From: Methylomonas sp. LL1
Lineage (GTDB): Bacteria > Pseudomonadota > Gammaproteobacteria > Methylococcales > Methylomonadaceae
DNA length: 64,000 nt
Direction of reading: 5' to 3'
NCBI RefSeq assembly: GCF_015711015.1
Contig: NZ_CP064653.1
Location: 4,402,001-4,466,000 of the forward strand
The number at the start of each line of letters is the position of its first letter. The first letter of the stretch is position 1. Of the stretch, positions 1,779 through 63,832 are shown piece by piece. A program made the translations under genes and the position numbers. Below the pieces are notes generated by a model. That model saw nothing but the letters and a program-made list of their open reading frames with translations, was not told the DNA's origin and did no database searches.

Positions 1779-4360
1779 AGCCTAGATTACTCGCAGCCAT
1801 GCTGGCACTGCTATTTTTTTCCGGCATTGCTGTGGCCGCAGAAACGGTCAGGATAGGCGTGCTGGCGTTCCGCCCCAAGGATCAGACACAGAGGCAATGG
1901 CAGCCATTGGCCGACGGGTTGAAGCGCAAATTGCCGGATCATGAATTTGTGATCCAAGCGCTTAATTATCATGAACTCAGACGGGCAGTAACTAATAACC
2001 AGTTGGACTTGGTTTTCACCAATCCGGCCTATTATATTTTTCTGAAATACCGGCATGGTTTATCCGCGCCATTGGCCACACTAGTCAATTATCAATCCGG
2101 CAAACCGATTTCCGGTTTCGGCGGGGTGATTTTTACCAAGGCCGATCGTGCCGGCTTGAACCGTTTGGCTGATATTCGCGGTAAGACCATTGCGGTTACC
2201 GAGAGGGGGTCGTTCGGCGGCTACCAAATGCAGGCTTATGAATTGGTGCGGCATGGCGTGAACATCAGCCAGGAAGCCAAGCTGTTGATCACCGACATGC
2301 CGCACGACAAAGTGGTTCGCGCCGTTTTGGATGGCCGCGCCGATGTCGGTTTCGTCCGTTCCGGCGTGCTGGAAGCCATGGCGCAGGAAGGCAATATCAA
2401 TTTGGCGGATTTCAAGATACTGAATGAACAACGCCAACCCGGGTATTCGACTTTGTTATCCACCCGTGTGTATCCGGAATGGCCCATCGCCGCGATGCCC
2501 CATGTCGATATTGGCTTGGCCGGCAAGATAACCGCCGCGTTGCTGACGCTGGAGGATGATCCGTCACTGACGGCCGCCATCAAGATTCAGGGCTTCGTGA
2601 TTCCGGCCGACTACGCGCCGGTGGAAGAAGTGTTGCGCAGCCTGCGAGTTTCACCGTTTGATGCGTTGCCTGAAATCACCATTGCCGATTTATGGCAGCT
2701 GTACCGCTGGCAAATTATGGGCGCTTGCGGGGCCGCGCTGGTGATTGTTTTTCTGGGCGTGCGCTTGCTGCGGGTCAATCGCCAACTCACGGTCAAGCAG
2801 CAATTAATCAAGGATCAATCTCAACGTATCAAGGCCAGCGAACAACTGTGGAAATTTGCCTTGGAAGGCGCCGGCGATGGGGTTTGGGATTGGCAAATCG
2901 AGACCGGTAAAACCTATTTCTCCCCGCGCTGGGTTGAGATGCTGGGCTATCAACCGCATCAGTTCGCCAACGACTATGATACCTGGTTCGCCCACATCCA
3001 TGCCGATGATGTCGATATGGTGTTGGCGACCTTGCGCGAATATCTGAATGGCAAGACCGCGTTGTATCAGGTCGAATTTCGAATGCGCTGCAATGACGGC
3101 GAGTATAAATGGATACTGGCGCGCGGCATGGTGGTGGAACGCGCGGCGGACGGCAAGCCGTTACGCATGATAGGTACCCATAGCGATATCAACGAGCGCA
3201 AACAGTTTCAAATTACGCTGCAGAGCAGTTTCGACCTGTTGCACAATCTGGCTCGGCAGATTCCCGGCTTTATTTATCAATACCAACTGTACCCCGATGG
3301 ACGCAGCTGTTTTCCGTTTGCCAGCGCGGGCATAGAGCAGATTTACGAAGTGAGTGCGGAGCAAGTGCGCGAGGATGCCACGCCGGTCTTTGCGGTGTTG
3401 CACCCGGACGACGTCGATGGGGTTTGGGCTTCGATTCAGGCCTCGGCGCAAAACTTGCGGCCATGGCATCACGAATATCGGGTCATCCTGCCTAAAAGCG
3501 GCTTGCGTTGGTTGTTGGGCAACGCGCGGGCGGAACGGCTGGCGGACGGTAGCGTGCTTTGGTACGGCTATGTGTCCGACGTGACCAACCGCAAGGACGA
3601 CGAACTGCGTTTGCAACGGCAAACCGAAGCCCTGCAACGGTCCAATGCCGATCTGGAACAGTTCGCCTACAGCGTATCGCACGACATGCGCCAGCCGCTA
3701 CGAACCATTGCCGGCCATTTGCAATTATTGGAGCGGGGCTTGAAAGACAGCATGGACCAGGAAAATCTCGATAATTTGAATTTTGCACTGGATGGCGCCA
3801 AGCGCATGGACGCGATGATAGTGTCGTTATTGGAATATTCGCGCGTCGGCCGCAAGACCGAGCCGAAGGCGGCGATTCCCAGCCGGGAGGCGCTGGACGA
3901 GGCCTTGTTTTTCCTGGGACCGGTGATCAAACAAAGCGGCGCGGCGGTCACGCCGCATGGCGAGTGGCCGCAAATTTTCGCCAGTCGCGACGAATTGACC
4001 CGCTTGTTCCAGAATCTGATCGGCAATGCACTGAAGTACCAGGCTGTGGGGAGCACGGCGAGGATCAGGGTCAACTCTGAAATTAATAACGGTCTCGAGT
4101 GGCGGGTTGCCATCGAAGACAACGGCATAGGCATAGCCGCCGGGCAAAGCCAAAGATTGTTTCAGTTTTTCAGCCGGCTGCAAGCGCGTAGCCGGTACGA
4201 AGGGACCGGCATGGGACTGGCATTGTGCCGGCGTATCGTCGAGCACCATGGTGGGCGCATTTGGGTTGAATCGGCGGGCGAGGGTCAGGGTTCGACCTTT
4301 ATCTTTGTCATTCCGCTCGAACAAACAGCGGTGGCGGACTCGGCGAGCGGCAGCCCATGA
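1775..4360 (+). CDS. Hybrid sensor histidine kinase with PhnD-like periplasmic domain
   Basis: 861 residues. The N-terminus is a signal peptide (MKPRLLAAMLALLFF...AVAA) followed by a PhnD-type (phosphate/phosphonate-binding, PF12974-like) substrate-binding domain to about residue 300. One membrane helix follows near 313-335, then two PAS domains (about 360-615). A HisKA box with SVSHDMRQP places the phospho-accepting histidine near residue 635. The HATPase domain shows N (NLIGNALKY), G1 (DNGIGI) and G2 (GTGMGLAL) boxes. ATG 1775 was chosen because it starts the signal peptide and overlaps the preceding stop; the frame is open further upstream without homology. The gene overlaps the next one by 4 bases. 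The likely ligand class is an oxyanion or phosphonate-like solute, which is inferred from fold only. Confidence 0.88.
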   Translation: MKPRLLAAMLALLFFSGIAVAAETVRIGVLAFRPKDQTQRQWQPLADGLKRKLPDHEFVIQALNYHELRRAVTNNQLDLVFTNPAYYIFLKYRHGLSAPLATLVNYQSGKPISGFGGVIFTKADRAGLNRLADIRGKTIAVTERGSFGGYQMQAYELVRHGVNISQEAKLLITDMPHDKVVRAVLDGRADVGFVRSGVLEAMAQEGNINLADFKILNEQRQPGYSTLLSTRVYPEWPIAAMPHVDIGLAGKITAALLTLEDDPSLTAAIKIQGFVIPADYAPVEEVLRSLRVSPFDALPEITIADLWQLYRWQIMGACGAALVIVFLGVRLLRVNRQLTVKQQLIKDQSQRIKASEQLWKFALEGAGDGVWDWQIETGKTYFSPRWVEMLGYQPHQFANDYDTWFAHIHADDVDMVLATLREYLNGKTALYQVEFRMRCNDGEYKWILARGMVVERAADGKPLRMIGTHSDINERKQFQITLQSSFDLLHNLARQIPGFIYQYQLYPDGRSCFPFASAGIEQIYEVSAEQVREDATPVFAVLHPDDVDGVWASIQASAQNLRPWHHEYRVILPKSGLRWLLGNARAERLADGSVLWYGYVSDVTNRKDDELRLQRQTEALQRSNADLEQFAYSVSHDMRQPLRTIAGHLQLLERGLKDSMDQENLDNLNFALDGAKRMDAMIVSLLEYSRVGRKTEPKAAIPSREALDEALFFLGPVIKQSGAAVTPHGEWPQIFASRDELTRLFQNLIGNALKYQAVGSTARIRVNSEINNGLEWRVAIEDNGIGIAAGQSQRLFQFFSRLQARSRYEGTGMGLALCRRIVEHHGGRIWVESAGEGQGSTFIFVIPLEQTAVADSASGSP

Positions 4361-6513
4361 CTATCGCTACTTCAGCTAAAGGTCGGAACCGCTCGGCGTA
4401 TTCGCACGGGTTGACCTTTTTGGTGTTGTTCATCACCCTGGCCGCCACGGTGGCTTCATGGCATTCGGCCCAGCGTGATTTGCAGCGCGAAACCCGGACT
4501 TATTTCGATTTCAGGGTACGGCAGCTGTTGGAAAACATGCAGGAACGGTTGGCGGCTTATCAGCAGATGTTATATGGCACACGCGGCCTGTTTGATGCCT
4601 CGGATACGGTCAGCCGCGGCGAGTTTCGCGATTATGTCGCCGCTTTGCGTCTGGAACGGCATTATCCGGGCATACAGGGCGTCGGTTTTTCGTTGCTGAT
4701 TCCGGCGGCCGACAAAGCAAAACATCTGGCCACGATCCACAAACAGGGTTTTGCCGATTACAACCTTCACCCCGACGGCGAGCGCGAGATTTATACCTCG
4801 ATTATCTATCTGGAACCGTTCGAGGGCAGCAATTTGCGTGCTTTCGGCTACGACATGTTTACCGAACCGGTGCGCAACCGCGCCATGGCATATGCCCGCG
4901 ATTATAACGGCATAGGCATGAGCGGCAAGGTGACGTTAGTTCAGGAAAGCGATAGGGATGTGCAGGCCGGTTTTTTGCTTTATTTGCCGGTCTATAAAAC
5001 CGGTCTACCTCACGACAGCGAACAACAACGGCGCGAAAACCTGCTGGGCTGGGTCTACTCGCCGTTTCGGATCAATGATTTCATAGCGGGCGTGGGCGGC
5101 GAGCGTTCCGGCGATTTGGCCCTGGCAATTTACGATGGCGATGGCATCGGCGAACAAAGCCTGATGTACGGCCAGCCGGTTTCAGAGCCTGAAAGTCAAT
5201 GGCTGAATACTATTCAACGCCTTGACATCGGCGGCCATGGTTGGACATTGGTGGTGCGTGCCGGCAGTGATTTTCAGTCAAGGTTGCCGCATGATAAACC
5301 CCGGTTAGTGGCGGGGATCGGCTTGTTGATGAGTTTGCTGTTGACCGTGTTGACCTGGCAGTTGGTCAACGGCCGCGGCCGTGCCTTGCTGTTGGCCAGG
5401 CAAATGACTGAGGAATTGCGCGACAGCGAAAGCCGCTTTCGATTGATGGCCGATTCGGCGCCGGTATTGATCTGGGTGTCAGGTACCGATAAGCTGTGCT
5501 TTTGGTTCAACAAGGTTTGGCTGGATTTCACTGGCCGTACTCTGGATCAGGAATTCGGCAATGGCTGGGCCGAAGGCGTGCATCCGGATGATTTGCAGCA
5601 TTGCCTGGATATTTATATCGGCCATTTCGATAACCGGCAGCCGTTTAGCATGGAGTACCGGCTGAAGCGGCATGATGGCGAATACCGCTGGTTGTTGGAT
5701 AACGGTATTCCGCGTTTCGACCATGAAGGCCATTTTGCCGGTTATATCGGTTCCTGTATCGACATCACCGAGCGCAAATTCATGCAAAGCGCCCTGGAGG
5801 CGCGCAACGCCGATCTGACGCGGTTCGCCGAAGTGTCCGCCCATCATTTGATGGAGCCGACCCGGCGGTTTGCCAGCTATACCCAACGCTTGAAAAAGCG
5901 TTTGTCCGCTTATCCGGACGCCGCCGGGGACGAGGAAGTTCTTATCGATCTGTCCACGTTGGAAGGCGATGCACTGTTGTTGCGCAGCTTGATTCTCGAT
6001 ATTCAACGCTATCTGTCAGCCGCCGAGCCGCGTGGCGAAGTGCGATTATTGGACAGCCGGGCCATTATGGCGGAAATAAGTAGAAAAATGGCGGCCAAAC
6101 TTCAGGCGCTAGGCGCTACGCTGACTGTCGAGGAATTACCGCCGGTAATGCTGGACCGTCCCCGCTTGGCCGACCTGTTCAGCCTGATTTTGGATAATAC
6201 TCTTCGGCATGGGGTGCCGGCCGAGAGCCGAAATCCTCTGCATATCATTCTCGGCGGCCAACGCGAAGGACATGTCAGCCGCTTTTTTATCAGCGATAAT
6301 GGCCCGGGTATTCCTGCTAAGTACCAGACGCGGGTGTTCGAGATTTTCGAGCGGCTGGGGCCGCGCACGGCCGATAGCGGCACCGGTATCGGTTTGGCGA
6401 TTGCCAGGCGTATCGTCGAAAGCCGCCATGGCAGGATAGGCTTTAAACATTTACCGCGGGGCGGCACCTGTGTCGTGTTCGAACTGCCCGATGGAGAACA
6501 ACGTGATACATGA
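4357..6513 (+). CDS. CHASE/PAS sensor histidine kinase
   Basis: 718 residues. An N-terminal membrane helix (about 15-30) and a second near 320-340 bracket a CHASE-type periplasmic sensor with the typical GVGFSLLIP segment. A PAS domain follows (about 360-480). The dimerisation domain reads SAHHLMEP, the variant seen in phytochrome-like kinases whose partner is a small Rcp1-type regulator. The HATPase shows LILDNTLRHG, DNGPGIP and GTGIGLAIARRIVE. It overlaps the upstream kinase by ATGA and the downstream CheY-like gene by about 23 bases, so all are probably translated from one message. The ligand is unknown. Confidence 0.88.
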   Translation: MTIATSAKGRNRSAYSHGLTFLVLFITLAATVASWHSAQRDLQRETRTYFDFRVRQLLENMQERLAAYQQMLYGTRGLFDASDTVSRGEFRDYVAALRLERHYPGIQGVGFSLLIPAADKAKHLATIHKQGFADYNLHPDGEREIYTSIIYLEPFEGSNLRAFGYDMFTEPVRNRAMAYARDYNGIGMSGKVTLVQESDRDVQAGFLLYLPVYKTGLPHDSEQQRRENLLGWVYSPFRINDFIAGVGGERSGDLALAIYDGDGIGEQSLMYGQPVSEPESQWLNTIQRLDIGGHGWTLVVRAGSDFQSRLPHDKPRLVAGIGLLMSLLLTVLTWQLVNGRGRALLLARQMTEELRDSESRFRLMADSAPVLIWVSGTDKLCFWFNKVWLDFTGRTLDQEFGNGWAEGVHPDDLQHCLDIYIGHFDNRQPFSMEYRLKRHDGEYRWLLDNGIPRFDHEGHFAGYIGSCIDITERKFMQSALEARNADLTRFAEVSAHHLMEPTRRFASYTQRLKKRLSAYPDAAGDEEVLIDLSTLEGDALLLRSLILDIQRYLSAAEPRGEVRLLDSRAIMAEISRKMAAKLQALGATLTVEELPPVMLDRPRLADLFSLILDNTLRHGVPAESRNPLHIILGGQREGHVSRFFISDNGPGIPAKYQTRVFEIFERLGPRTADSGTGIGLAIARRIVESRHGRIGFKHLPRGGTCVVFELPDGEQRDT

Positions 6514-32922: not shown

Positions 32923-34112
32923 CAGGGCAATCGCGCTATGTAGCTTCTGTCCCAAAAAGTAACTTGAAGCGATAGTTGTCGTTTAGACAGGCCCGCAGTT
33001 TACGGCGCTTCAAGCTATCTTTAGTTGGACCGTTGTTCCTGAGCAGATTCAAGGCCATCCGTCGCATCAATGCCAGATTTTCGGCGGAATGATCAGTTCT
33101 GGCTCGATTGGCGTCTTCGCCAAATTGCACATCCAACACCCAGTGCTGTGAGTTTTCAATCGCCCAATGTTGTCGGACACCTTTGGCAAAGCGCGACAAA
33201 TCGGTAAATGAGCACAAATAGTAACGATGCTCGACCGAGGTTTTATCGCCGATGATGCGCGTTGATTCAACCCTTCCAACGGCTTGTAGTCCGGCCCAGT
33301 CTGGCTTTTGCGTCAACCAATCAATCTGGGTACTCAAGCTATAGCGGCGTATTTCGATGCGCCCGTGACTTTTGTCGATCGTTTCATGGATGGGTAATCG
33401 ACTTTGGGCATTTTCCGTATCCAGCCAGAGTCGAACGTCTTCGCAAAGCAAGGCGTGATTATCCTTGAGAGCCAACACATAATCGGCTTGCGCCGCGACG
33501 ATGGTTTGGGCAATGGCTTTTTGGCAGCCCATGGCATCAATCGAGATCAAGGCGCCTTGAATATCCAACATCGACAACAAATCCGGAATGGCCGTGATTT
33601 CGTTAGTTTTTTCGCCGACCGCTTGCTGCGCTAATACCCAGCGCGCTTCAGCGGCAAAAGCACTCATCAAATGCACGGCTTTATCTCCTTCACGACTGCC
33701 GCGCAGGGTTTTACCATCCAAACAAACTTGCTGACCCGAAAGGCTGGGCAAGGCCGCCCGCACCCAACACTGAAAGGCATCCGCAAAGGCTTTGGGATTC
33801 AATCGCCCAAATACATCGCTCAAGGTATCGTGCGAGGGAATGCCGTTCGGTAGTGCCAGAAATGTCCTAAGCCAATCTTCTTTTTCTTCGGCAAACTCTT
33901 CCATGCCTACCCAGTCTTCAATGCCACTCAACACCGCGCACAATACAATCATGACAATATCGCCGAGGTTGTGCAGCTTGTTTTTGGTTTCGCGCCGCGG
34001 GTCTTCAAGATTAGCCAAATAGGGCATTGGATCAGGTAACATCTGCGTTTTGGGGCAAATCACTATACTAAACGATAGGATCGGGCAAGTGCTACATAGC
34101 GCGATTGCCCTG
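32923..34112 (-). mobile_element. ISAs1-family insertion sequence, intact
   Basis: 1190 bp. Perfect 22-bp terminal inverted repeats lie at 32923-32944 and 34091-34112 (outer ends CAGGGCAATC). They are flanked by a 10-bp direct repeat GTCTATAAGG at 32913-32922 and 34113-34122, the target-site duplication. The single transposase gene spans nearly the whole element. Undamaged ends and target copies indicate a recent insertion; removing it rejoins DUF190 to the ilvD upstream region. Confidence 0.95.
32936..34063 (-). CDS. ISAs1-family transposase
   Basis: Up to 375 residues. It has the ISAs1-type DDE architecture: an N-terminal DDE_Tnp_1-associated region (LEDPRRETKNKLHNLGDIV, LPSHDTLSDVFGRL), then LDGKTLRGS with the first Asp, ISIDAMGCQK with the second and YYLCS...RQHWAIENSQHWVLDV with the Glu. 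The frame is uninterrupted. The start is GTG 34063, ATG 34042 or ATG 34027; none has a clear ribosome site. It mobilises the element carrying it. Confidence 0.95.
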   Translation of the reverse strand: MICPKTQMLPDPMPYLANLEDPRRETKNKLHNLGDIVMIVLCAVLSGIEDWVGMEEFAEEKEDWLRTFLALPNGIPSHDTLSDVFGRLNPKAFADAFQCWVRAALPSLSGQQVCLDGKTLRGSREGDKAVHLMSAFAAEARWVLAQQAVGEKTNEITAIPDLLSMLDIQGALISIDAMGCQKAIAQTIVAAQADYVLALKDNHALLCEDVRLWLDTENAQSRLPIHETIDKSHGRIEIRRYSLSTQIDWLTQKPDWAGLQAVGRVESTRIIGDKTSVEHRYYLCSFTDLSRFAKGVRQHWAIENSQHWVLDVQFGEDANRARTDHSAENLALMRRMALNLLRNNGPTKDSLKRRKLRACLNDNYRFKLLFGTEAT

Positions 34113-34207
34113 GTCTATAAGGATAGAAAGCGGAAATCCTTTAGCGATTCGAGTAAAATCTCGCTCATTTACCTTCAATTAACTTACAGCTTCCTCCGAG
34201 GTTCACC

Positions 34208-36058
34208 ATGCCCCAGTACCGTTCCCGCACAACCACCCACGGCCGCAACATGGCCGGCGCAAGATCACTGTGGCGCGCCACGGGCATGAAAGAGGAAGAT
34301 TTCACCAAGCCCATCATTGCCGTTGCCAATTCGTTTACCCAATTCGTGCCCGGCCATGTACATCTCAAGGATATGGGCCAACTGGTAGCGCGCGAGATCG
34401 AAAAGGCCGGAGGCGTGGCCAAGGAATTCAACACCATCGCCGTGGATGACGGTATCGCCATGGGCCATTCCGGCATGCTGTATTCACTGCCCAGCCGCGA
34501 TCTGATCGCCGACAGCGTGGAATACATGGTCAATGCCCACTGTGCCGATGCGCTGGTGTGCATCTCCAACTGCGACAAGATTACCCCCGGCATGCTAATG
34601 GCCTCTCTGCGCCTGAACATACCGGTGATCTTCGTCTCCGGTGGCCCGATGGAAGCCGGTAAAGTGAACTGGAACGGCCAAACCCGCGCACTGGATTTGG
34701 TCGACGCCATGGTGGAAGCCGCCGATGACAGAATCAGCGACGAACAAGTCGCCGCCGTGGAACGTTCCGCTTGTCCGACCTGCGGTTCCTGCTCCGGCAT
34801 GTTCACGGCCAACTCGATGAACTGCCTGACCGAGGCCTTGGGGCTTAGTCTGCCCGGCAACGGTTCGCTTGTCGCCACACACGCCGATCGTGAGCAATTG
34901 TTTCTGCGCGCCGGCCGCACTATCGTCGAATTGGCCAAACGTTATTACGAACAAGACGACGCTTCGGTTCTGCCGCGCTCCATCGCTACATTCGAAGCTT
35001 TCCAAAACGCCATGAGTCTGGATGTTGCCATGGGCGGCTCCACCAACACCGTGCTGCACCTGCTGGCGGCGGCGCACGAGGCCGGCGTCGACTTTACCAT
35101 GTCGGATATAGATGCGATTTCGCGCCGGGTGCCCTGTTTGTCCAAAGTCGCGCCGGCCACTCAAAAATATCACATGGAAGACGTGCATCGCGCCGGCGGC
35201 GTGATCGGCATTTTGGGCGAATTGGATCGCGCCGGGATCATCAATCGCGATGTGCCGACGGTGCATGCGCCGACCATGGCGGCCGCGCTCGATCAATGGG
35301 ACATCCAACGTACCCAAGACGAAAGCGTCAAGGAGTTCTATCGTGCCGCGCCCGGCGGTATCCCAACTACCATCGCTTTCTCGCAATCGGTGCGCTATCC
35401 GACGCTGGACGACAACCGCGCCGAAGGCTGTATCCGCGACAAAGCCAATGCCTATTCTCAGGACGGTGGTTTGGCGGTGCTGCATGGCAACATCGCCTTG
35501 GATGGTTGCATCGTCAAGACTGCCGGGGTGGACGACAGCATCCTCAAGTTCACCGGCCGCGCGCGCATATTCGAGAGCCAGGATGACGCAGTCGCCGGTA
35601 TTCTGAACGATAAGATACAGCCGGGCGACGTGGTCGTGATTCGTTACGAAGGCCCCAAGGGCGGCCCCGGCATGCAGGAAATGCTGTACCCGACCAGCTA
35701 TCTGAAGTCCAAGGGGCTGGGCAAGGCCTGCGCATTGCTCACCGACGGGCGTTTCTCCGGCGGCACCTCCGGCCTCAGTATCGGCCACGCCTCGCCCGAG
35801 GCCGCCGAGGGTGGAGCCATCGGCCTGGTGGAAGAGGGCGATACGATAGAAATCGACATTCCCAATCGCCGCATTCATCTGGCGGTGTCGGTGGAAGAAC
35901 TCGAACGCCGCCGGGCCGCGATGCTTGCCAAGGGGCCTCGGGCCTGGAAACCGGTCAACCGTGAAAGAACGGTATCGGCCGCGCTCAGGGCTTATGCCGC
36001 CATGACCACTTCGGCCGCGAAAGGCGCCGTGAGAGACGTATCCCAGGTCGAGCGATAG
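34208..36058 (+). CDS. ilvD: Dihydroxy-acid dehydratase
   Basis: 616 residues, the full length of the Edd/IlvD family. It converts 2,3-dihydroxy-3-methylbutanoate (and the methylpentanoate homologue) to the 2-keto acids in valine, leucine and isoleucine synthesis. Iron-sulfur cysteines are visible in [11 protein letters not shown] and [18 protein letters not shown]; the Mg-binding [13 protein letters not shown] and the C-terminal [21 protein letters not shown] are intact. GAGG lies before ATG 34208. It is not in an ilv operon here. Confidence 0.97.
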
Positions 36059-36384
36059 TAAGAGGCTTCAATCCCGCTGGGTTTCGTGGTCGCGGTTCAA
36101 GCCGACGTGTATATGATTGAAACGTTACGCGAAGTTAATTTAATATCGGTTCTCGGACCGACAGCCGTGTTTGTTGCTTTTGCGCGGCCCCAAAAAAGAA
36201 ACCCAAGAAAAGGCCGACCCGACACCGCCAGTTTCCCGTGCTTCTTGCCAAACACTGCGCTGTTCGGGGCGGTATAGGGGGGATAACAGTATTACTTCGG
36301 TATTATTCCGCTTCGCCAACAATTGCGGGCAAAACCGAGTATCCCTAGGGAGCAAAGACGAGGTTTTTGCTACCTCGAAATCGC
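36059..36384. other. Gene-free interval between convergent genes
   Basis: No gene supported. Frames in this stretch are short and without domains. Homopolymeric runs (CCCCAAAAAAG near 36188) and a GC-rich patch are present but no clear terminator hairpin was found. Confidence 0.35.
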
Positions 36385-37719
36385 TTATTCGGACAGATGC
36401 ATCACCAATCCGTATAACAAGCCGCAGCCGGTCGCCATCACAATCACCAGTGATACAAAGGCAACCGTCTTGGTGGTGCCCAGTATGCTGCGGATCACCA
36501 GCATGTTGGGCAGCGACAAAGCCGGTCCGGCCAGCAACAAGGCCAGCGCCGGGCCTTCGCCCATGCCGCTGCCGACCAGGCCTTGTACGATAGGGACTTC
36601 GGTCAGCGTGGCGAAATACATGAAGGCGCCGGCGAAAGCGGCAAAGAAGTTGGCGCCGATGGAATTTCCGCCCACCGCCACCGACACCCATTCGGATGGA
36701 ATCAGACCCTCGTGGCCGGGGCGGCCGAGTAAGGCACCGGCGATCAATACGCCGATCAACAGCAACGGCAAGATCTGCTTGGCGTAATCCCAGGCGGCGC
36801 CAAACCAAGCGCCGCCTTGATCCTGATCGGTGCTGGTGATCCAGGATAGGCCGATGACGGCCGCAGCAAAAGGCAGCAAGGGTTGGCTGCCGAACAGCAG
36901 CGCCGCCGCGGCAGTCACCACGGCCACCAAGGTCAGGCGGCCGCTCGGCAATTGAAACCAGCGGCTCAAGATGATCGCCAAGGTGACGCCGAACAAACCG
37001 GTCAGCCACCATTTGGCCGCATAAATCGCATGCCACAAGCCTTCTGTGTTATCCGATTTGGCCCAGTTGGCAAACACCAGAATCAACACCAGCGTGGCCA
37101 AAAACAGGCTGTTTTGCCAGAGCGGGCGGCTGGGTTCTTCTTCCGGCAGCGCGACTTGCTTTTTGATCTTTTCCAGTTCTTCCTTGCGAAACAGATAAGC
37201 CATGATCAGGCCAATCACCACGCTGAATAACACCGCGCCCAACGCGCGGGCGATGCCCAATTCCATGCCTAGAATCCGCGCCGTCAAAATGATCGCCAAC
37301 ACGTTGATGGCCGGCCCGGAATACAAAAAGGCTATCGCCGGCCCCAGCCCCGCGCCCATCCGGTAAATGCCGGCGAACAACGGCAACACGGTGCAGGAAC
37401 AAACCGCAAGGATGGTGCCGGACACCGACGCCACCGCATAGGCCACGCCCTTGGGTGCCGTGGCCCCCAGGTACTTCATCACCGCGCCCTGGCTGACGAA
37501 GACAGCGATGGCTCCGGCGATGAAGAAAGCCGGAATCAAACACAGCAATACGTGCTCTTCGGCATACCAGCGCACCAGATACAAGGCTTCCCAGAAGGCA
37601 TTGTGCAAGCGTTCCCAGCTTTGCAGGGCTTCCACCGGCAGGTAAAAACACACCAGGAAGCCGGCGACGATCAGTAATAGCGCCTTCCATTCGTCACGCC
37701 AAAATGAAGTGTTGTTCAT
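36385..37719 (-). CDS. DUF318/YraQ-family permease (ArsP-like)
   Basis: 444 residues, about ten membrane helices in two halves. AVCSCTVLPLFAGIYRMGAGLGPA and FLYSGPAINVLAI in the N-half and GANFFAAFAGAFMYFATLTEVPI in the C-half are conserved in COG0701 permeases, which include the organoarsenical exporter ArsP. GAGGA lies 9 bases before ATG 37719. Downstream of the ars genes and in the same direction, it may export methylated or thiolated arsenic, but COG0701 members also transport other compounds. Confidence 0.8.
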   Translation of the reverse strand: MNNTSFWRDEWKALLLIVAGFLVCFYLPVEALQSWERLHNAFWEALYLVRWYAEEHVLLCLIPAFFIAGAIAVFVSQGAVMKYLGATAPKGVAYAVASVSGTILAVCSCTVLPLFAGIYRMGAGLGPAIAFLYSGPAINVLAIILTARILGMELGIARALGAVLFSVVIGLIMAYLFRKEELEKIKKQVALPEEEPSRPLWQNSLFLATLVLILVFANWAKSDNTEGLWHAIYAAKWWLTGLFGVTLAIILSRWFQLPSGRLTLVAVVTAAAALLFGSQPLLPFAAAVIGLSWITSTDQDQGGAWFGAAWDYAKQILPLLLIGVLIAGALLGRPGHEGLIPSEWVSVAVGGNSIGANFFAAFAGAFMYFATLTEVPIVQGLVGSGMGEGPALALLLAGPALSLPNMLVIRSILGTTKTVAFVSLVIVMATGCGLLYGLVMHLSE

Positions 37720-37811
37720 GGTCGTTTTCCTCTGGGTTTTTGCTCGAGCCGGAAAAGCGCTTGGCAATTTTTGTAATTGAATGGGTTACCAATGCCACTC
37801 AGGATGTAGAT

Positions 37812-37887
37812 GTAGGGTACGCATTGCGTACCTTGTTGGGCGTTCCAAATACCTAGGCGTTAAAAAGGTACGCGGTGCGTACCCTAC
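37812..37887. repeat. REP-like long inverted repeat
   Basis: A 21-base arm (37812-37832) matches the complement of 37867-37887 at 19 positions, spacer 34. Each arm is itself near-palindromic (GGTACGCATTGCGTACC). It lies between the permease gene and the glycine-zipper protein gene, inside a gene-free stretch (37720-38029) that otherwise shows nothing. Confidence 0.8.
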
Positions 37888-38029
37888 AAGACTCGTAAGG
37901 CGGATTCGCCGATTGGCAATCCGCCATAGCTTTGAAGAGCGTTGGCGTTTTGCTATCGCGAAAACGCCCTACGATCTCCGGTTTTAAACGATCAGGATTG
38001 CTTTGGCTCCGCAGAGGCTAGTCGAACGG

Positions 38030-38842
38030 TTATTGCCAACTACCGTCAGATATCCGGCAGGCGGTTCTTGTCGAGCCATCGAGTAAACGACCGCTTTGAG
38101 TCAACTGGTAACTAAATTCGCGGCACCAGTTGCCGTCGGGATTCTGGAAACTACGTAACGGGACGATACGGTATTGGTTCGTGCCGTTGTTCCAGTCGAT
38201 TGGCCGTTGATCATATCCGTACTCCAGCGATTGGCTAAAACAAAAACGATCCCCGTCATCCATGCTTTGCCCGATTTGATTGCCCAGCATTTGATTAACC
38301 ATCGCACCGGCAATGGCTCCCATCATGGAATTACCGCCTCCTACCATAGTGCCTATGGCGCTACCTATCGCGTTTCCCATATTAGGTCCGCTGTTATAAG
38401 CCGACTGTGGGCGATTACAGCGTCCCTGGCCAATGCCATAGGTGTCGGCACCGTAACGGGAGCTGTAACGAGTATCGTATCCTCCCCAATAGCGATTGTT
38501 AGACCGAGTGCCTCGGTCGTAATCACCAGGATGTTCTTTTTTATATTCCTTTTGCATTTCCTTATGATCTTTTCGCTCCTCGCGCTGCATTTCTTCTTGA
38601 TGCTTGCGAGTTTCCCGCTCCATTTCCTCCCAGTGTTTGCGTTCTTCGCGATCGATCTCTTCCTGATGTTTTTGTTCCTCGCGCTGCATTTCTTGATACT
38701 TTTTTTGCGCTTCACGTTGATGCTCCTGGAAGTCTTTTCTGGCCTCCCAGTCATCCTTATTGGGAGGATCGGCAAGACAGGGCGAACTCATAAGAGCGGT
38801 GGCTAAAATGACTTTAAAACCAGTGATGAATTGGATATTCAT
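38030..38842 (-). CDS. Exported protein with 11-residue repeats and glycine zipper
   Basis: 270 residues. A signal peptide (MNIQFITGFKVILATALMSSPCLA) is followed by five exact 11-residue repeats at 43-97 of the form REERKHWEEME, encoded by five 33-base units (38552-38716). They predict a right-handed hendecad coiled coil. A Tyr/Arg-rich linker and a glycine-zipper segment (GNAIGSAIGTMVGGG, MMGAIAGAMVNQML) then lead to a C-terminal domain with two or three Cys like that of 17-kDa surface antigens. It is probably an envelope protein; its function is unknown. Confidence 0.72.
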   Translation of the reverse strand: MNIQFITGFKVILATALMSSPCLADPPNKDDWEARKDFQEHQREAQKKYQEMQREEQKHQEEIDREERKHWEEMERETRKHQEEMQREERKDHKEMQKEYKKEHPGDYDRGTRSNNRYWGGYDTRYSSRYGADTYGIGQGRCNRPQSAYNSGPNMGNAIGSAIGTMVGGGNSMMGAIAGAMVNQMLGNQIGQSMDDGDRFCFSQSLEYGYDQRPIDWNNGTNQYRIVPLRSFQNPDGNWCREFSYQLTQSGRLLDGSTRTACRISDGSWQ

Positions 38843-39117
38843 AATACTCCCTCGTTTTATATTTTTTAAAAAACTGCCGATGGCGGCTTATGCCGTAAAA
38901 CGCAGATCAAAACACGAAAAAATGCATCAGCATCATAAGTTCCGCACATTACCTGTAATCGGACAAGGTTTCTATTTATCTGAATGATTGTCTGCTGTTT
39001 TGCGGAAGCAGCAGTTCGCAACTGACGATATTGGGCTTCCGATTTAGCGGGAGAGACGAACGTGAAATGTCAGAGGCTCCGATTGGTTGCAAGTTGGCTT
39101 TCCCTTGTTCCATCCGC

Positions 39118-39360
39118 TCAACCCAAATGGGCGGCGATTTCATCGGGCGTTAAAATCTTGCCCTGGCTGACCACCTCATCGTTGACGACCAAGGCCGGAG
39201 TTGCCATTACTCCCCGCTCGACGATTTGCATCATGTCGGTGATATGTACTACTTCAGCGGTGAGATTTCGCGAGGCAACCGCTTCCCGTGCGTTGGCTTC
39301 CATCTGCTGGCATTTCTTGCAACCCATTCCAAGAATCTCGATTTTCACTGTGTCGGTCAT
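39118..39360 (-). CDS. Small thioredoxin-fold disulfide protein
   Basis: 80 residues. The motif GMGCKKC gives a redox-active CxxC, and VMATPALVVNDEVVSQGK supplies the cis-Pro, matching the thioredoxin_3 / redox-active disulfide protein 2 family. These are frequent neighbours of COG0701 permeases. AGGAAA precedes ATG 39360. It is transcribed with the ars genes, and may help shuttle electrons to an arsenate reductase or the permease. Confidence 0.85.
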   Translation of the reverse strand: MTDTVKIEILGMGCKKCQQMEANAREAVASRNLTAEVVHITDMMQIVERGVMATPALVVNDEVVSQGKILTPDEIAAHLG

Positions 39361-39437
39361 GGCATATTTCCTGTGGTTGGTAAAAAACATTCTGTCGGGT
39401 GGTCGCGTTTTAATGCACTCTCGAGTGTCGTTGCAAC

Positions 39438-39896
39438 TTATCGGATGCCTGGCGCTTTGGCGATGGCCACGAAGTTTCCTTCAAAATTGCCCGCCGGCTG
39501 CCCCTCGTAGTCAAGGATAGCTGAAATCGCAATTCGGGCGCGGCCTCTACGGGAGAGCGTGCGCATGAAAACATCCCACGCTTCCGGCTGCTTGATGAAC
39601 GAACGCGCCGTAAATGTGCCATGAATCGGCCGTTCATAGCTCATGGTATTGTTTTGAATCACGATGCCACTGGTGATACCTGCGCTTTTCAGGCGAACAT
39701 GCACCAGTGACCATGCCGCCAGGGTTGCTACTGCCGAGGCGCTGCCACCGAACACGGATTCGGTGTGATTGATGTTGGGCGCCAACGGTGCGCTCAGAAT
39801 AACCCTTTCTTGGTTTGCTTCGAATACGCTGACCTGCATGGCTTTTGACAGCGGGATATGGTCATGTAGATACTGCTCAAGTGTTTGCGGATTCAC
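39438..39896 (-). CDS. YiiD-type thioesterase-like protein
   Basis: 152 residues of a hot-dog-like fold: APLAPNINHTESVFGGSASAVATLAAW and the GRARIAISAIL segment resemble the putative thioesterase domain of YiiD. GTG 39896 has AGGA 8 bases upstream; the frame extends another 15 codons upstream, overlapping the methyltransferase gene. The methyltransferase stop is 4 bases before this GTG, consistent with co-transcription. Its substrate is unknown. Confidence 0.75.
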   Translation of the reverse strand: MNPQTLEQYLHDHIPLSKAMQVSVFEANQERVILSAPLAPNINHTESVFGGSASAVATLAAWSLVHVRLKSAGITSGIVIQNNTMSYERPIHGTFTARSFIKQPEAWDVFMRTLSRRGRARIAISAILDYEGQPAGNFEGNFVAIAKAPGIR

Positions 39897-39900
39897 GGGC

Positions 39901-40719
39901 TCATTCCTTCGTGGCGATTGCGTAAATGACGTTGGTCTCAATCGCTGTCACTCGCTCTTCAAAAAGACGGGACAAGTTGCCTTGGCGCACACGCTTGAAA
40001 GTATCCGGGGCCAGTTGCTCAAGCGTGCCTCGATAGCCGCTGCCCATCGCGATCTTCCACCAATCTTCCGGCTCGTTCAAAGGATGTGTGCCAGATTCGG
40101 CCAGGATATCGACAATTTGCACACCGGCTTCCGCCAGCATCTGCCTGAGACCGTCCGGTTCCGAGATGCGCTCCCATGGATTGAAGGCTCGGTGTAAATC
40201 CGGGCGTTCAAGATGGATGGCTTCCCAGAAGGCGCCGTTGGCCGGCTCGAACAGATTCGGTCCCCAGGTGGTGATGGCCAGCCGGCCGCCGGGTTTCACC
40301 ATGCGCCATAATTCCCTGACCGCCGCGTTCATGTCCGGCACGAAAAATATGCCGAACACGCAAACCACCGCGTCGAAGCTGTGATCGGGATAGCCCAAGG
40401 CCAGCATGTCGTCGACCCGGAATTCGATGTTGGTCATTCGCTGGGCTTCGGCCTTGGCTCTGGCCAGAGCTATCAGACGTTCGGCGAGATCGGCGGCCAC
40501 CACGTAGCCTTCCGCGCCAACCCTATCCGCCGCCGGTAGTGCCGAACCGCCGCTGCCGGAACAAACATCCAGCACCCGTTCGCCGCTTTTCAGTTCGAGT
40601 CGTTCGATAGTTCGCCGGCCAAAGCGATGCCAGAACGAGCTGACCGGATGGTCGAAGTGGTCGGCGGCGGCGTTGTAGGCCATCGCGGCTTTGGCATTGG
40701 CTTGCTGATGTAGGCTCAT
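39901..40719 (-). CDS. Class I SAM-dependent methyltransferase
   Basis: 272 residues. The SAM motif I is VLDVCSGSGGSAL, motif II AVVCVFGIFFV, and a later LWRMVKPGGRLAITTWG is typical of Methyltransf_11/UbiE-like enzymes. It lacks the conserved cysteines expected of the arsenite methyltransferase ArsM, so it should not be called arsM from position alone. GGGG stands 7 bases upstream. It lies 4 bases after acr3. Confidence 0.83.
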   Translation of the reverse strand: MSLHQQANAKAAMAYNAAADHFDHPVSSFWHRFGRRTIERLELKSGERVLDVCSGSGGSALPAADRVGAEGYVVAADLAERLIALARAKAEAQRMTNIEFRVDDMLALGYPDHSFDAVVCVFGIFFVPDMNAAVRELWRMVKPGGRLAITTWGPNLFEPANGAFWEAIHLERPDLHRAFNPWERISEPDGLRQMLAEAGVQIVDILAESGTHPLNEPEDWWKIAMGSGYRGTLEQLAPDTFKRVRQGNLSRLFEERVTAIETNVIYAIATKE

Positions 40720-40723
40720 TGGA

Positions 40724-41782
40724 TTACCCCACGGCGTAAATGCGTTTCCTGAAGAAAAACGCCGCGTTCACCAGTGCAATCATCACCGGCACCTCGATCA
40801 ACGGCCCGATCACTGCCGCAAACGCCGCGCCGCTGTTGATGCCGAAAACCGCAACGGCCACCGCAATCGCCAGCTCAAAATTGTTGCTGGCGGCAGTGAA
40901 TGCCAGTGTCGTGGTCTTGCCGTAATCGGCGCCGATGGCCTTGCCCATCAAGAAACTGACCAGAAACATCACCACAAAGTAAATCAACAGCGGTATCGCG
41001 ATGCGCACCACGTCCATCGGCAATTGCACGATCAGATCGCCTTTCAAGGAAAACATCACCACGATGGTGAACAGCAGGGCGATCAGCGTCAGCGGGCTGA
41101 TTCTGGGTACAAATTTTTGCTGATACCAGTCCTTGCCCTTGGCTTTGACCAACAGCAAGCGGGTCGTGAATCCGGCGATGAACGGAATACCCAGATAGAT
41201 GAACACGGTTTTGGCGATTTCGCCTATGGTGATGGCCACCAGGCTGCCTTGCAGCCCGAATAATGGCGGCAGCACGGTGATGAACAGCCAGGCGTAGACA
41301 CTGAAAAACAGCACCTGGAACACACTGTTGAAGGCCACCAATGCGGCGCAGTATTCGTTGTCGCCGCGCGCCAGTTCGTTCCAGACGATCACCATGGCGA
41401 TGCAGCGGGCCAGGCCGATCAGGATCAGGCCCGTCATGTATTCAGGATAATCGCGCAAAAAAACGATGGCCAGCACGAACATCAACACTGGGCCGATTAT
41501 CCAGTTTTGCAGCAGCGAAATACCCAGCACCCGCCAATTACGGAATACATCGCCCAGTTCTTCGTAATGCACCTTGGCCAGCGGTGGGTACATCATCAGG
41601 ATCAGGCCGATGGCGATCGGGATGTTGGTAGTGCCGACCGATACCGCGCGGTTGAAGTCGGTGACTTCGGTTGGAAATGCAAAACCGATGCCGACGCCGA
41701 TCGCCATGGCGATGAAAATCCATAACGTCAGGAATCGATCGAGAAAGGATAAGCGGGCATTGGGGCAGTTGGGCGTACTCAT
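40724..41782 (-). CDS. acr3: Acr3-type arsenite efflux pump
   Basis: 352 residues with ten membrane helices. The conserved Cys is in [16 protein letters not shown] and the carboxyl-half signature is [19 protein letters not shown]...[10 protein letters not shown]. Acr3 exports As(III) by proton motive force, and can be driven by ArsA ATPase, which is encoded upstream. AGGAGA precedes ATG 41782. Operon member. Confidence 0.93.
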
Positions 41783-41798
41783 TAAAGTCTCCTGATGG

Positions 41799-42242
41799 TT
41801 AACTTACCTGTTCGGGCGCAGAGGGTTTGCAGCAAGCCGAAGCTTGCTCCAGTTTTATGACTTGGTCTTCGCCGAACATAGGAATCGAACTCAAGGAATG
41901 GAAAGCCTCCCAGGGAATGCCTTGCGGATCGACGCTCCAGTATTTATCCGATTGCACGTAGCAACAGGCGGCTTGTTTTTGTTCGGTAACCGGCAAGGCG
42001 GCTGCGGCAAGACCGTGCTGTACGGCCTCCAGTTCATCGCTCGATTCGACCTGAATACCAAGATGATCCAGTCCCGGCTGGCGGCCGCGACTAGAGATGG
42101 CAAAGTTGACCCGCGGATCGTCCAGCAGCCATTTGGCGTAATCGGCTTCGAGAACCGTGGGCGTGCTCTGAAGCAGGGCACTGTAAAAATGAATGTTTTT
42201 CTCAAGGTCATCGACGGCGATGTGGATGTGTAGGCGTTTCAT
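41799..42242 (-). CDS. arsI: ArsI/CadI-type glyoxalase-fold protein
   Basis: 147 residues. One vicinal-oxygen-chelate domain ([38 protein letters not shown]) carries metal-ligand His and Glu positions. The Cys pair CCYVQ and the C-terminal ASACCKPS match the ArsI/CadI family, where ArsI is a C-As bond lyase degrading methylarsenite. Start ATG 42242 overlaps the arsC stop by 4 bases (ATGA); the frame upstream is not homologous. Activity as lyase is inferred from family and context. Confidence 0.85.
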
Positions 42243-60647: not shown

Positions 60648-61499
60648 TTGGCCAGCATTCTAGTCGTCGGTTGCGGCGATGTCGGTTACCGGGTGGCGCT
60701 GGCTTTGCGAGGGCTGGGGCATCGGGTAGTCGGGCTTAAGCGACAGCCGCCGCCGGCGCCATCCTCCTTTCCCATCCTGACCGCCGATATTCGGCGAGCT
60801 TCCACGCTGACTGCTGTATCCACCGAATTTGATCTGCTGTTATTTATCGTCTCGCCCGGCAGTCGAGAACCGGATGCTTATCGGGCCGTGTACGAGATTG
60901 GCTTGAATAATCTGCTGACACACTTTGCCACGGCCGGGCGGGCGCCGAAATGGTTGATGGTTTCGTCAACCAGTGTCTACGGCCAAAATCGCGGCGAATG
61001 GGTGGATGAATCCAGCGTCACCGAACCTCAATCGGCCACCGCGCAGTGGCTGGTTGCGGCCGAGCAACGTTTATGGATGGCCGACGCCAGTCATTGTGTG
61101 GTTCGATTCTCTGGCATCTACGGCCCCGGCCGCGACTGGTTGTTACGGCGGGCGGCACTAGGCGAAAGCATTCAACAACAACCGCCCACCTATACCAATC
61201 GCATACATCGCGACGATTGTGTGGCGGCGCTGGTATTTTTAATCGAAAAACAATTGGCCGGCGCCGGCTTGCAGTCTTGCTATCTAGCCAGTGATAACGA
61301 GCCGGTGCCGTTGTGGGATGTGATGTGTTGGATCGCCGATCAATACCAATATCCCACGCCCACGGCCTTGACCATGCCGGCCGACACCGGGCAAAACAAG
61401 CGTTGTAGCAATGCGCGGCTCGCCGCGCTGGGTTATGTATTTTTGTATCCAAGCTACCGCGACGGCTATCTGAAGCCGCCAAAGCCGGAGGCTGTCTAA
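60648..61499 (+). CDS. NAD-dependent epimerase/dehydratase-like (YeeZ type)
   Basis: 283 residues. The Rossmann motif ILVVGCGDVGYRVALAL opens it. SSTSVYGQ and FSGIYGPGRD are extended SDR features; the catalytic Tyr-x3-Lys is replaced in part, so a dehydrogenase role is uncertain. TTG 60648 is preferred because GAGG lies 7 bases upstream. Its stop is at the left edge of the origin-like region, and the last 10 bases belong to a direct repeat. Confidence 0.78.
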   Translation: MASILVVGCGDVGYRVALALRGLGHRVVGLKRQPPPAPSSFPILTADIRRASTLTAVSTEFDLLLFIVSPGSREPDAYRAVYEIGLNNLLTHFATAGRAPKWLMVSSTSVYGQNRGEWVDESSVTEPQSATAQWLVAAEQRLWMADASHCVVRFSGIYGPGRDWLLRRAALGESIQQQPPTYTNRIHRDDCVAALVFLIEKQLAGAGLQSCYLASDNEPVPLWDVMCWIADQYQYPTPTALTMPADTGQNKRCSNARLAALGYVFLYPSYRDGYLKPPKPEAV

Positions 61500-61559
61500 A
61501 TTTTACACAATTCAAGATAAGGTATTGATAGATATGATTTAATCTAATCAATTCGCACA

Positions 61560-61594
61560 TTATCTACAAACTTATCCACATGAATTGGGGATAA
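61560..61594. promoter_or_regulatory. DnaA-box module 1
   Basis: TTATCTACA (61560-61568), TTATCCACA (61572-61580) and TGGGGATAA (61586-61594, reverse). The centre box is perfect; the outer ones have one mismatch. Confidence 0.65.
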
Positions 61595-61732
61595 ACCGGA
61601 TTAATTCGAAATCATCTCGGGATAACTTGGGTTGTCAGTGGCTTGGCCGTGTCAATACCCAAGGCTGTTTAAAATTTAGACAATTCAAGTCAACTATTTG
61701 AAAAGTAAAGATATTTAATTTTAAATATCAGC

Positions 61733-61767
61733 TTGTCTACAACATTATCCACAGATTATGGGGATAA
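61733..61767. promoter_or_regulatory. DnaA-box module 2
   Basis: TTGTCTACA (61733-61741), TTATCCACA (61745-61753) and TGGGGATAA (61759-61767, reverse). The offset from module 1 is exactly 173 bases. Confidence 0.65.
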
Positions 61768-61897
61768 CCGTGGATAGACAAAATACGCGGTTTTTTCGAT
61801 GAATACGGTGAGGACAGGATGGGTTTTAGCCGTGCTCAAAAATCAACATGTTATTTAACTCATTGATATATGGATTATATATTGACTATTACGCAAG

Positions 61898-61932
61898 TTA
61901 TCGACAATGTTGTCCACAGAAAATGTGGATAA
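61898..61932. promoter_or_regulatory. DnaA-box module 3
   Basis: TTATCGACA (61898-61906), TTGTCCACA (61910-61918) and TGTGGATAA (61924-61932, reverse; perfect complement of TTATCCACA). The offset from module 2 is 165 bases. Confidence 0.65.
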
Positions 61933-62014
61933 CTGTTTTATTATGTGCTCCATGTTGAAAACTATGCCGCGCTAGCGGATGTGATAACTATCGATTTAAC
62001 TTTGTTAGCCGAAC

Positions 62015-63832
62015 ATGAAATCCAATACCGCCGATAAGCCTTTCCAACGCGCCGCCGTGGCGCCAGCGCTGCCAACACACACGGTCAGTTTTATTATTTT
62101 TTGTCTGCGCCGGTTTCGGGCCTTGGTTTTGCTGATGATGTTGCTGGAAGCCGGGCAGGCCGCTGGTAGTATTCTGGTGCCCTATGCAATCAAGGCCTTG
62201 ATGGATGCGGTCGCGGTTCAGCCGAATACCGAGGCTTTGTGGGAAACCTTCAAGCAGCCTTTGTTGTTGCTGGCGGGGATCAATCTGGCCGAGATTCTGT
62301 TCAGCCGCGCCAGCGGCGCGCTGCTGATCATCATGGGGCCGCGCTTACGCCAACGCACCAGCCGTTTGCTCTATGCTTATTTGCAACAACATTCGCCGCG
62401 TTATTTCGGCAATCATTTTGCCGGCAGTCTGGCGCACCGGGTCAGCGAAACCGCGATGAGCGTCAATCATACTACTTGGTCGGTACTGTGCGATTTCTGG
62501 CCGATCAGCGTGACCTTTATGGTGTCGGTGGTATTGTTGCTGAATGTGCATACCGGCTTGGGTGGATTCGTGGCCGGCTGGGTGTTCTTGTACGTGGCTT
62601 CATCCTATTGGCTGGCGACCCGCTGCCAACCCTATACGCAAAATTATGCCGCCACCCGCAGCCTGGTGAACGGCAAGATCGTCGACGTAGTCACCAACAT
62701 ACTGAATGTCAAGCTGTTTGCTCGGCTGGATTACGAACGGGAATATTTGGACGGTATTCTGGAAACCGAAGTGCGGGAAGGTCGGCGTACCTTCTGGTAT
62801 ATGGAACGGGTGCGCTGGTTTCAGTTTACCGCCGCGGCCATACTGAAAATCGGCACCATAGGCTATGCCTTGATGTTATGGAGCCGGGGCGACATCAGCG
62901 TCGGCGATTTTGCGATGAGCACGGGCCTGGCGCTGCTGATCATCGGTGACGCCCGCAACCTGACCCGCCGCTTCCTGGAGTTCTTCGAATATGTCGGCAA
63001 CGTCGCCAATGGGGTCGATACCATCGTCAAGCCGCATGAAATCATCGATGCGGAAAATGCCCAGCCTTTGCAGGTGAGGGAAGGGCGGATCGAATTTCGT
63101 GAGGTCTGTTTTGCCTACGAAACCGGCCGGCCGGTATTCGAGAATCTGAATGTCGAAATCCAGCCGGGGCAGCGAGTGGGCTTGGTCGGCTTTTCCGGCT
63201 CAGGCAAATCGACCTTTGTCAGCCTGATTTTGCGCAACTATGAACCGCAGTCCGGCCACATCCTGATCGACGGGCAGGACATTGTTCAGGCTACCCAGGA
63301 GTCCTTGCACCGGCAGGTCAGCTTGATCCCGCAAGATCCCAGCCTGTTTCATCGCAGCCTGAAGGAAAATATCGCCTATGGCCGCCTGCAAGCCAGCGAC
63401 GACGAGATACGCGAAGCAAGCCGTCTGGCGCATGCCGACGGCTTCATCGAGGCCATGCCGGAAGGCTATGACGCCCTGGTAGGCGAACGCGGCGTCAAGT
63501 TGTCGGGCGGTCAACGCCAACGGATCGCGATTGCCAGGGTCATGTTGAAGGATGCACCGATTCTGATCTTGGACGAGGCGACTTCCAGCCTGGATTCCGT
63601 CACCGAAAAGACCATACAGGAAAATTTGGATAGAGTCATGGGGCGTAAAACCGTGATCGCGATTGCCCACCGCTTATCGACCATTGCCCATCTGGACAGG
63701 ATTTTGGTATTCGACCAAGGCCGGATAGTCGAGGACGGCAGCCATGATGATTTACTGGCCAAGAAAGGCTTTTACCACCAATTATGGGCCATGCAAGCGG
63801 GCGGCTTTTTACCGGATCAGCAGGGCGAATGA
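62015..63832 (+). CDS. ABC exporter, fused membrane and ATPase domains
   Basis: 605 residues. A six-helix type IV ABC exporter membrane domain (about 25-330) is followed by an ATPase domain: Walker A GFSGSGKST, signature LSGGQRQRIA, Walker B ILILDEATSSLD and the switch His in IAIAHRLSTIA. It probably works as a homodimer and exports a lipid, peptide or drug; the substrate is not evident. ATG 62015 has only a weak ribosome site. Its promoter is presumably inside the origin-like region. Confidence 0.9.
   Translation: MKSNTADKPFQRAAVAPALPTHTVSFIIFCLRRFRALVLLMMLLEAGQAAGSILVPYAIKALMDAVAVQPNTEALWETFKQPLLLLAGINLAEILFSRASGALLIIMGPRLRQRTSRLLYAYLQQHSPRYFGNHFAGSLAHRVSETAMSVNHTTWSVLCDFWPISVTFMVSVVLLLNVHTGLGGFVAGWVFLYVASSYWLATRCQPYTQNYAATRSLVNGKIVDVVTNILNVKLFARLDYEREYLDGILETEVREGRRTFWYMERVRWFQFTAAAILKIGTIGYALMLWSRGDISVGDFAMSTGLALLIIGDARNLTRRFLEFFEYVGNVANGVDTIVKPHEIIDAENAQPLQVREGRIEFREVCFAYETGRPVFENLNVEIQPGQRVGLVGFSGSGKSTFVSLILRNYEPQSGHILIDGQDIVQATQESLHRQVSLIPQDPSLFHRSLKENIAYGRLQASDDEIREASRLAHADGFIEAMPEGYDALVGERGVKLSGGQRQRIAIARVMLKDAPILILDEATSSLDSVTEKTIQENLDRVMGRKTVIAIAHRLSTIAHLDRILVFDQGRIVEDGSHDDLLAKKGFYHQLWAMQAGGFLPDQQGE

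Follow-up and report, generated by a model that had tools for sequence, protein, structure and literature searches.

DARS1 and DARS2 of E. coli, the closest described counterparts of the locus considered here, share the spacing of their DnaA boxes, with box I opposed to boxes II and III (excerpt of PMC5742627), and a head-to-head contact between DnaA molecules on boxes I and II has been proposed as the trigger of ADP release (excerpt of PMC8682772). As read from two extracts of the MG1655 sequence, each numbered separately, the boxes of DARS1 lie at 5108(+), 5122(-) and 5134(-) of one and those of DARS2 at 3136(+), 3150(-) and 3162(-) of the other, in both cases with gaps of 5 and 3 and with box I opposed; on the other strand both cores therefore read + 3 + 5 -. 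Two IHF matches end at 74 and 58 nt from the DARS2 core and are separated by 3 bp, in line with the published description of IBS1-2 (excerpt of PMC4245941), where a shift of the IHF sites by 5-10 bp is also described as lowering DARS2 activity in vitro. Excerpts of PMC12371093 and PMC4585315 were drawn on as further literature, and no report of DARS in methanotrophs, of DnaA boxes in Methylomonas or of tandem DARS was found among the open-licence PMC papers listed.

The window analysed, a stretch of 64,000 nt, corresponds to positions 4402001-4466000 of the chromosome contig (C2, 4,798,577 bp) of Methylomonas sp. LL1. Within it, a gap of 515 nt separates the stop codon (61499) of a gene of the NAD-dependent epimerase/dehydratase family (60648..61499, + strand) from the ATG (62015) of an ABC transporter permease/ATPase gene (62015..63832, + strand), which is MsbA-like, scoring under the MsbA cut-off; both genes lie outside the element. 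The gap holds three modules on the + strand, each composed of DnaA boxes in the order + + - with gaps of 3 and 5, a geometry identical to that of the two E. coli cores. Module 1 (61560..61594) consists of box III at 61560-61568(+), TTATCTACA, box II at 61572-61580(+), TTATCCACA, and box I at 61586-61594(-), TTATCCCCA; module 2 (61733..61767) of boxes at 61733(+), TTGTCTACA, 61745(+), TTATCCACA, and 61759(-), TTATCCCCA; and module 3 (61898..61932) of boxes at 61898(+), TTATCGACA, 61910(+), TTGTCCACA, and 61924(-), TTATCCACA. The module starts are 173 (modules 1 and 2) and 165 nt (modules 2 and 3) apart, and a repeat of 27 bases at 61490 and 61663 has 24 of 27 positions equal by eye, a 37-base version being listed at 81%. 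Direct reading of the boxes thus bears out the threefold arrangement, the 173-base spacing and the repeat described in the sequence-only reading. The old tandem duplication proposed there is likewise supported, since copies 1, 2 and 3 recur in eight genomes and same-numbered copies across genomes are somewhat more alike (80-83% identical) than different copies within one genome (77%).

Other short elements accompany the modules. A weak fourth DnaA-like box, TTATCCCGA (61617..61625, - strand, 2 mismatches), lies 22 nt 3' of module 1, and its GGATAA is kept in all eight arrays. Downstream of module 3, the 9-mer TGTTGAAAA (61953..61961), which read on the - strand (TTTTCAACA) may represent a weak DnaA-like box, is identical in 8/8 arrays. 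No ORF of at least 80 aa lies wholly inside the gap, into which an antisense 180-aa ORF (61018-61560) extends by 61 nt.

Several scans indicate how unusual this concentration of boxes is. Eight DnaA boxes at no more than one mismatch fall within 500 nt at the array, the highest density in the DNA scanned, where the only other reported clusters of at least four boxes are found beside dnaA (4) and at C2:4195505 (4). A 35-nt module pattern, to which the array modules show 0 mismatches by construction because it was fitted to them, gave a single match at up to 6 mismatches, itself at 6, when 40 samples (20 kb each, 800 kb in total) from this chromosome were scanned. Close box pairs outside the array numbered six, three of them facing with a gap of 5, in 1.144 Mb of chromosome, a scan which included the window and two stretches chosen because they hold modules. 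Among the eight array genomes the DnaA boxes are conserved while the spacers drift, and box III carries T or G at base 6, where the consensus has C, in 24/24 units.

The trio geometry is not restricted to the array. A general pattern of three DnaA boxes with gaps of 3 and 5 (up to 3 mismatches) was found in all 61 Methylococcales genomes searched (37 of the genus Methylomonas and 24 from other families of the order), with 1 to 8 matches each, a count in which one site may appear on both strands and the array itself contributes three; the modules of the relatives fit the pattern at 0-3 mismatches. Since neither the reversed trio nor a control with gaps of 4 and 6 matched in any of the same 61 genomes, we infer that the trio spacing is probably under selection in Methylococcales.

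Each module of the array is also preceded by an IHF-type site at a fixed distance. The exact consensus site TAAGGTATTGATA (61518..61530, + strand), the IHF-like site CAACTATTTGAAA with one mismatch (61691..61703, +) and the exact site TAACTCATTGATA (61856..61868, +) end 29 nt before modules 1, 2 and 3, respectively; the second is overlapped by an opposite-strand match with one mismatch (61688-61700, -), and near the third there is a second exact match on the other strand (61841-61853). When the 75 nt upstream of each of the 24 units (eight genomes, three units each) were scanned, a match to YAANNNNTTGATW with at most one mismatch ended exactly 29 nt before the module in 20 units, 11 of these being exact. 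Shuffled upstream sequences gave a match anywhere in the 75 nt in a mean of 2.8 cases (largest 7) at this threshold, and an exact one in 0.18 (largest 2). The 24 units share ancestry, so that the fixed spacing represents conservation and not 24 independent events; over the 66 nt upstream, IHF site included, units of the same number share 50-56% identity. For 9/24 units the upstream DNA also holds IHF-type matches on the opposite strand, and a few extra ones were seen on the same strand.

A composite of IHF site, 29-nt spacer and module, allowing up to 3 mismatches, matches 23 of the 24 array units and occurs in 35 of 311 genomes, eight of which are the array genomes. In the remaining 27 (of 303 non-array genomes) each match has 2-3 mismatches; four of them are Methylomonas (G002, G005, G011 and G020), with one composite each at 3 mismatches. 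As far as such matches can suggest, units spaced at 29 nt may also occur singly, without an array. In G002 and G005 the composite is carried by a second contig (241 kb and 149 kb, respectively), perhaps a plasmid.

Single modules, on the other hand, follow a different arrangement: in a selection of 32 non-array loci (3 from the same genome and 29 from relatives), the IHF match lies 84-87 nt upstream of the module in 21 by raw count. One of these modules, at C2:4195505, is located immediately 5' of priA, with dsbB on its other side, and has its IHF match 85 nt away; since a priA match was present at 9 of the 30 relative loci examined around modules, the priA-side module may be the classical DARS of the clade. 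Another, at C2:955086, has an IHF match at 86 nt and precedes a gene for pyruvate:ferredoxin oxidoreductase, near the terminus and separated from dnaA by 47% of the chromosome; a gene of this kind was found at 5/30 of the same relative loci.

The IHF distance in the array is thus 29 nt, and not the 58-74 nt of DARS2 or the spacing one turn farther seen in most of the single modules examined. Given that E. coli DARS2 is sensitive to IHF displacement, an array with its site at -29 may work differently. Fis-like 15-mers were tentatively placed at -66 to -52 from module 1 (61494..61508, + strand, 2 mismatches, overlapping the epimerase stop) and from module 2 (61667..61681, +, 1 mismatch). Among the 16 units 1 and 2 of the eight genomes, 15 have their best Fis-like match beginning at -66, many of these matches being no better than shuffles, and the corresponding count for units 3 is 0/8. 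The DARS2 order of core and IHF, perhaps followed by Fis, is preserved in the array, the Fis-like sites being weak. The array combines a DARS core with a different IHF distance.

With regard to the proteins that such an element would require, the genome carries dnaA, hda, ihfA, ihfB and a fis-type gene: Hda (TIGR03420) and both IHF subunits, alpha and beta, score above cut-off, and the Fis-type protein reaches the cut-off exactly (99 of 99 bits) when the genome is searched and falls marginally short of it (98.7) in a trimmed scan. HU/IHF-family matches number nine in all, and two adjacent HU/IHF-type genes are found at C1:47920-48556, on a 125-kb contig.

All three modules hold three boxes each, with box I opposed and with the DARS1/DARS2 spacing, at a non-coding chromosomal site away from the origin. 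The locus is best read, with a confidence that is fair rather than high, as a tandem triple DARS-like element that would recharge DnaA off the origin with the assistance of IHF, tuning the timing of initiation. In this proposal, the unit is formed by an IHF-type site, a 29-nt spacer and three boxes, III and II being head-to-tail and 3 nt apart, II and I facing at 5 nt. By analogy with the E. coli DARS, ADP-DnaA would assemble on the box trio, DnaA molecules on the facing boxes II and I would make a head-to-head contact leading to the loss of ADP, and apo-DnaA would then depart and take up ATP. The bending by IHF beside each trio could promote or time the assembly, and three such units in series are proposed on this basis to raise the output or to sharpen the switch. 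What the sequences establish is the box geometry, the constant spacing of the IHF-type sites, their conservation, the place away from the origin and the presence of the genes for DnaA, Hda, both IHF subunits and a Fis-type protein; binding of DnaA and IHF, nucleotide exchange and cooperation between units are inferred. Several observations speak against this reading: the IHF-type site at -29, the opposite-strand and extra IHF-type matches, the array's restriction to 8 of 37 Methylomonas genomes by a strict pattern, the departure of box III at base 6, the weak Fis-like sites that are missing from that place in unit 3, and the common descent of the 24 units. Replication of the locus would fall some way into the round (in four genomes, roughly 20-38% of the chromosome length separates it from dnaA), and it would help to set the initiation time. 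A more ambitious version can be put forward only tentatively: that the array is a distinct class of DnaA control, in which three IHF-DARS units with rigid 29-nt spacing form a cooperative, ultrasensitive recharging switch in part of Methylomonas, beside single elements with IHF at about 85 nt.

The main rival is a datA-like role, in which IHF would bend the DNA between box clusters so that ATP-DnaA would assemble and be hydrolysed, or DnaA would simply be stored; it is considered rather unlikely. It draws on the array being the densest box cluster in the DNA scanned and on IHF-type sites 2 and 3 being flanked by DnaA clusters, like the site in datA, E. coli datA also containing an exact IHF match among its boxes. 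However, no 3/5 trio exists in datA, where the box at 2407 of the extract read faces the following one across a gap of 3 and the IHF match ends 84 nt before this facing pair, and the arrangement of box 2, IHF and box 3 with datA spacings is absent from the array. The recurrence of the 3/5 trio across the order, and not of the 4/6 control, also speaks against this role. The DnaA reservoir that the sequence-only reading had offered was close in kind, as far as an off-origin locus for DnaA-binding control is concerned, but the trio and the IHF-type site point to a DARS-like element and not to simple storage.

The distribution of the array bears on a second alternative, that of a DnaA/IHF-controlled promoter region for the downstream ABC-transporter gene, which we regard as distinctly unlikely. 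By a strict two-module pattern, the array was found in 8 of 37 Methylomonas genomes, in none of the 274 other genomes of the order (311 in all) and in none of the 368 others of a class sample (369 including the window's genome), although diverged arrays could be missed since boxes II and I had to fit this pattern perfectly. Modules 1 and 2 are 171-173 nt apart in all eight arrays, and modules 2 and 3 155-178 nt. Seven of the eight lie between the epimerase and ABC genes, with a DsbD-type gene preceding, and the array is directly upstream of the ABC gene in 7/8 array genomes, as a promoter role would have it. In the remaining case (G015) some 550 extra nt separate the array from the gene, and yet neither the units nor the 3' 9-mer has been lost. 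Moreover, no module was present upstream of the ABC gene in 22 of the 30 loci examined out of 35 found (up to 900 nt, two having shorter upstream DNA), and promoter-like sites are at chance level, on which grounds the promoter reading was rejected. A link with the epimerase gene was rejected too: 15 of 22 epimerase loci have neither the array nor either neighbour (within 1.5 kb), with no DnaA box at up to one mismatch in the 800 nt scanned at these 15, and the array of G029, a genome 78% complete, is present without an epimerase match. In a tree of the ABC protein (30 of the 35 genomes with a match), array carriers are clustered, with 2 changes against 7.2 in shuffles; the deep forks are weak, so that one gain with losses is not distinguishable from other histories.

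The sequence-only reading had also raised the possibility of a chromosomal origin away from dnaA, with the skew minimum as its check. An oriC in this position, or a second origin, could be expected to show the DnaA boxes, the IHF-type sites and the A+T-rich DNA (64% A+T upstream of the ABC gene) seen here, but it is very improbable and was rejected on skew and on the position of dnaA. The cumulative GC skew, calculated from the window and from 40 samples (20 kb each), reaches its minimum at the 3.60-Mb sample and its maximum near 1.0 Mb, and a contiguous 280-kb scan places the minimum at about 3.51-3.54 Mb, adjoining dnaA (3,501,035), which has a four-box cluster of its own beside it at 3,502,341. 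The array, at 4.4636 Mb, is 0.963 Mb (20% of the chromosome) from dnaA and so away from the minimum, and the GC skew is positive on either side of it with no switch. Furthermore, the distance between array and dnaA varies between genomes (21, 35 and 38% of the chromosome in three other single-contig ones), and by the strict pattern the array was not found in 29/37 congeners. If the origin is at dnaA, the array strand is co-directional with the replication fork in 4/4 genomes, skew having been read in LL1. The site is thus probably a control of replication timing rather than the origin itself. As regards composition, the skew turns negative at 34001-42000 of the mostly positive window, perhaps through a local inversion or an acquired stretch, and the samples C2:4080001-4100000 and C2:4680001-4700000, whose G+C is low (0.44 and 0.41, the other samples having about 0.50-0.57), may be acquired islands.

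Finally, RNA hairpins or terminators, for which boxes II and I would be an inverted repeat with a 5-nt loop and which could account for one terminator-like match at module 3 (shuffle mean 0.4), are scarcely credible, as the arms differ in many units in the manner of DnaA boxes with no matching change opposite (judged by eye), box III and the spacing of the IHF sites are left unexplained, and no Rfam family reached its gathering score, whereby a structured RNA was rejected.

In comparison with the known systems, the DARS-like array shares with E. coli DARS1 the three boxes with gaps of 5 and 3, the opposed box I and an off-origin, non-coding location; DARS1, however, is a single core in another gene context (between bioD and uvrB) and, unlike the array, lacks an IHF match in the region that reaches from 150 nt ahead of the core start to 100 nt past it. 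With DARS2 it has in common an identical core geometry, IHF sites beside the core and perhaps Fis sites farther out, but DARS2 has one core in a total of 455 bp, IHF matches ending 58 and 74 nt away instead of 29, and a proven Fis dependence where the array has only weak Fis-like sites. The likeness to datA consists of an IHF site among DnaA boxes and of DnaA control away from the origin, and the difference lies in the missing 3/5 trio and in the other spacings. The single DARS-like modules of Methylococcales, such as that beside priA, have the same trio geometry and differ in being one module, with the IHF match in 21/32 of the non-array loci at 84-87 nt and not at 29. In the excerpts of PMC8682772, PMC5742627 and PMC4245941, DARS are described for E. 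coli and proteobacteria close to it; the array and the trio modules in 61/61 Methylococcales genomes suggest that DNA-driven recharging of DnaA may reach farther and take different architectural forms. With three units occurring naturally in series at a new IHF spacing, the locus would, moreover, offer a direct test of IHF geometry and copy number in DnaA reactivation.
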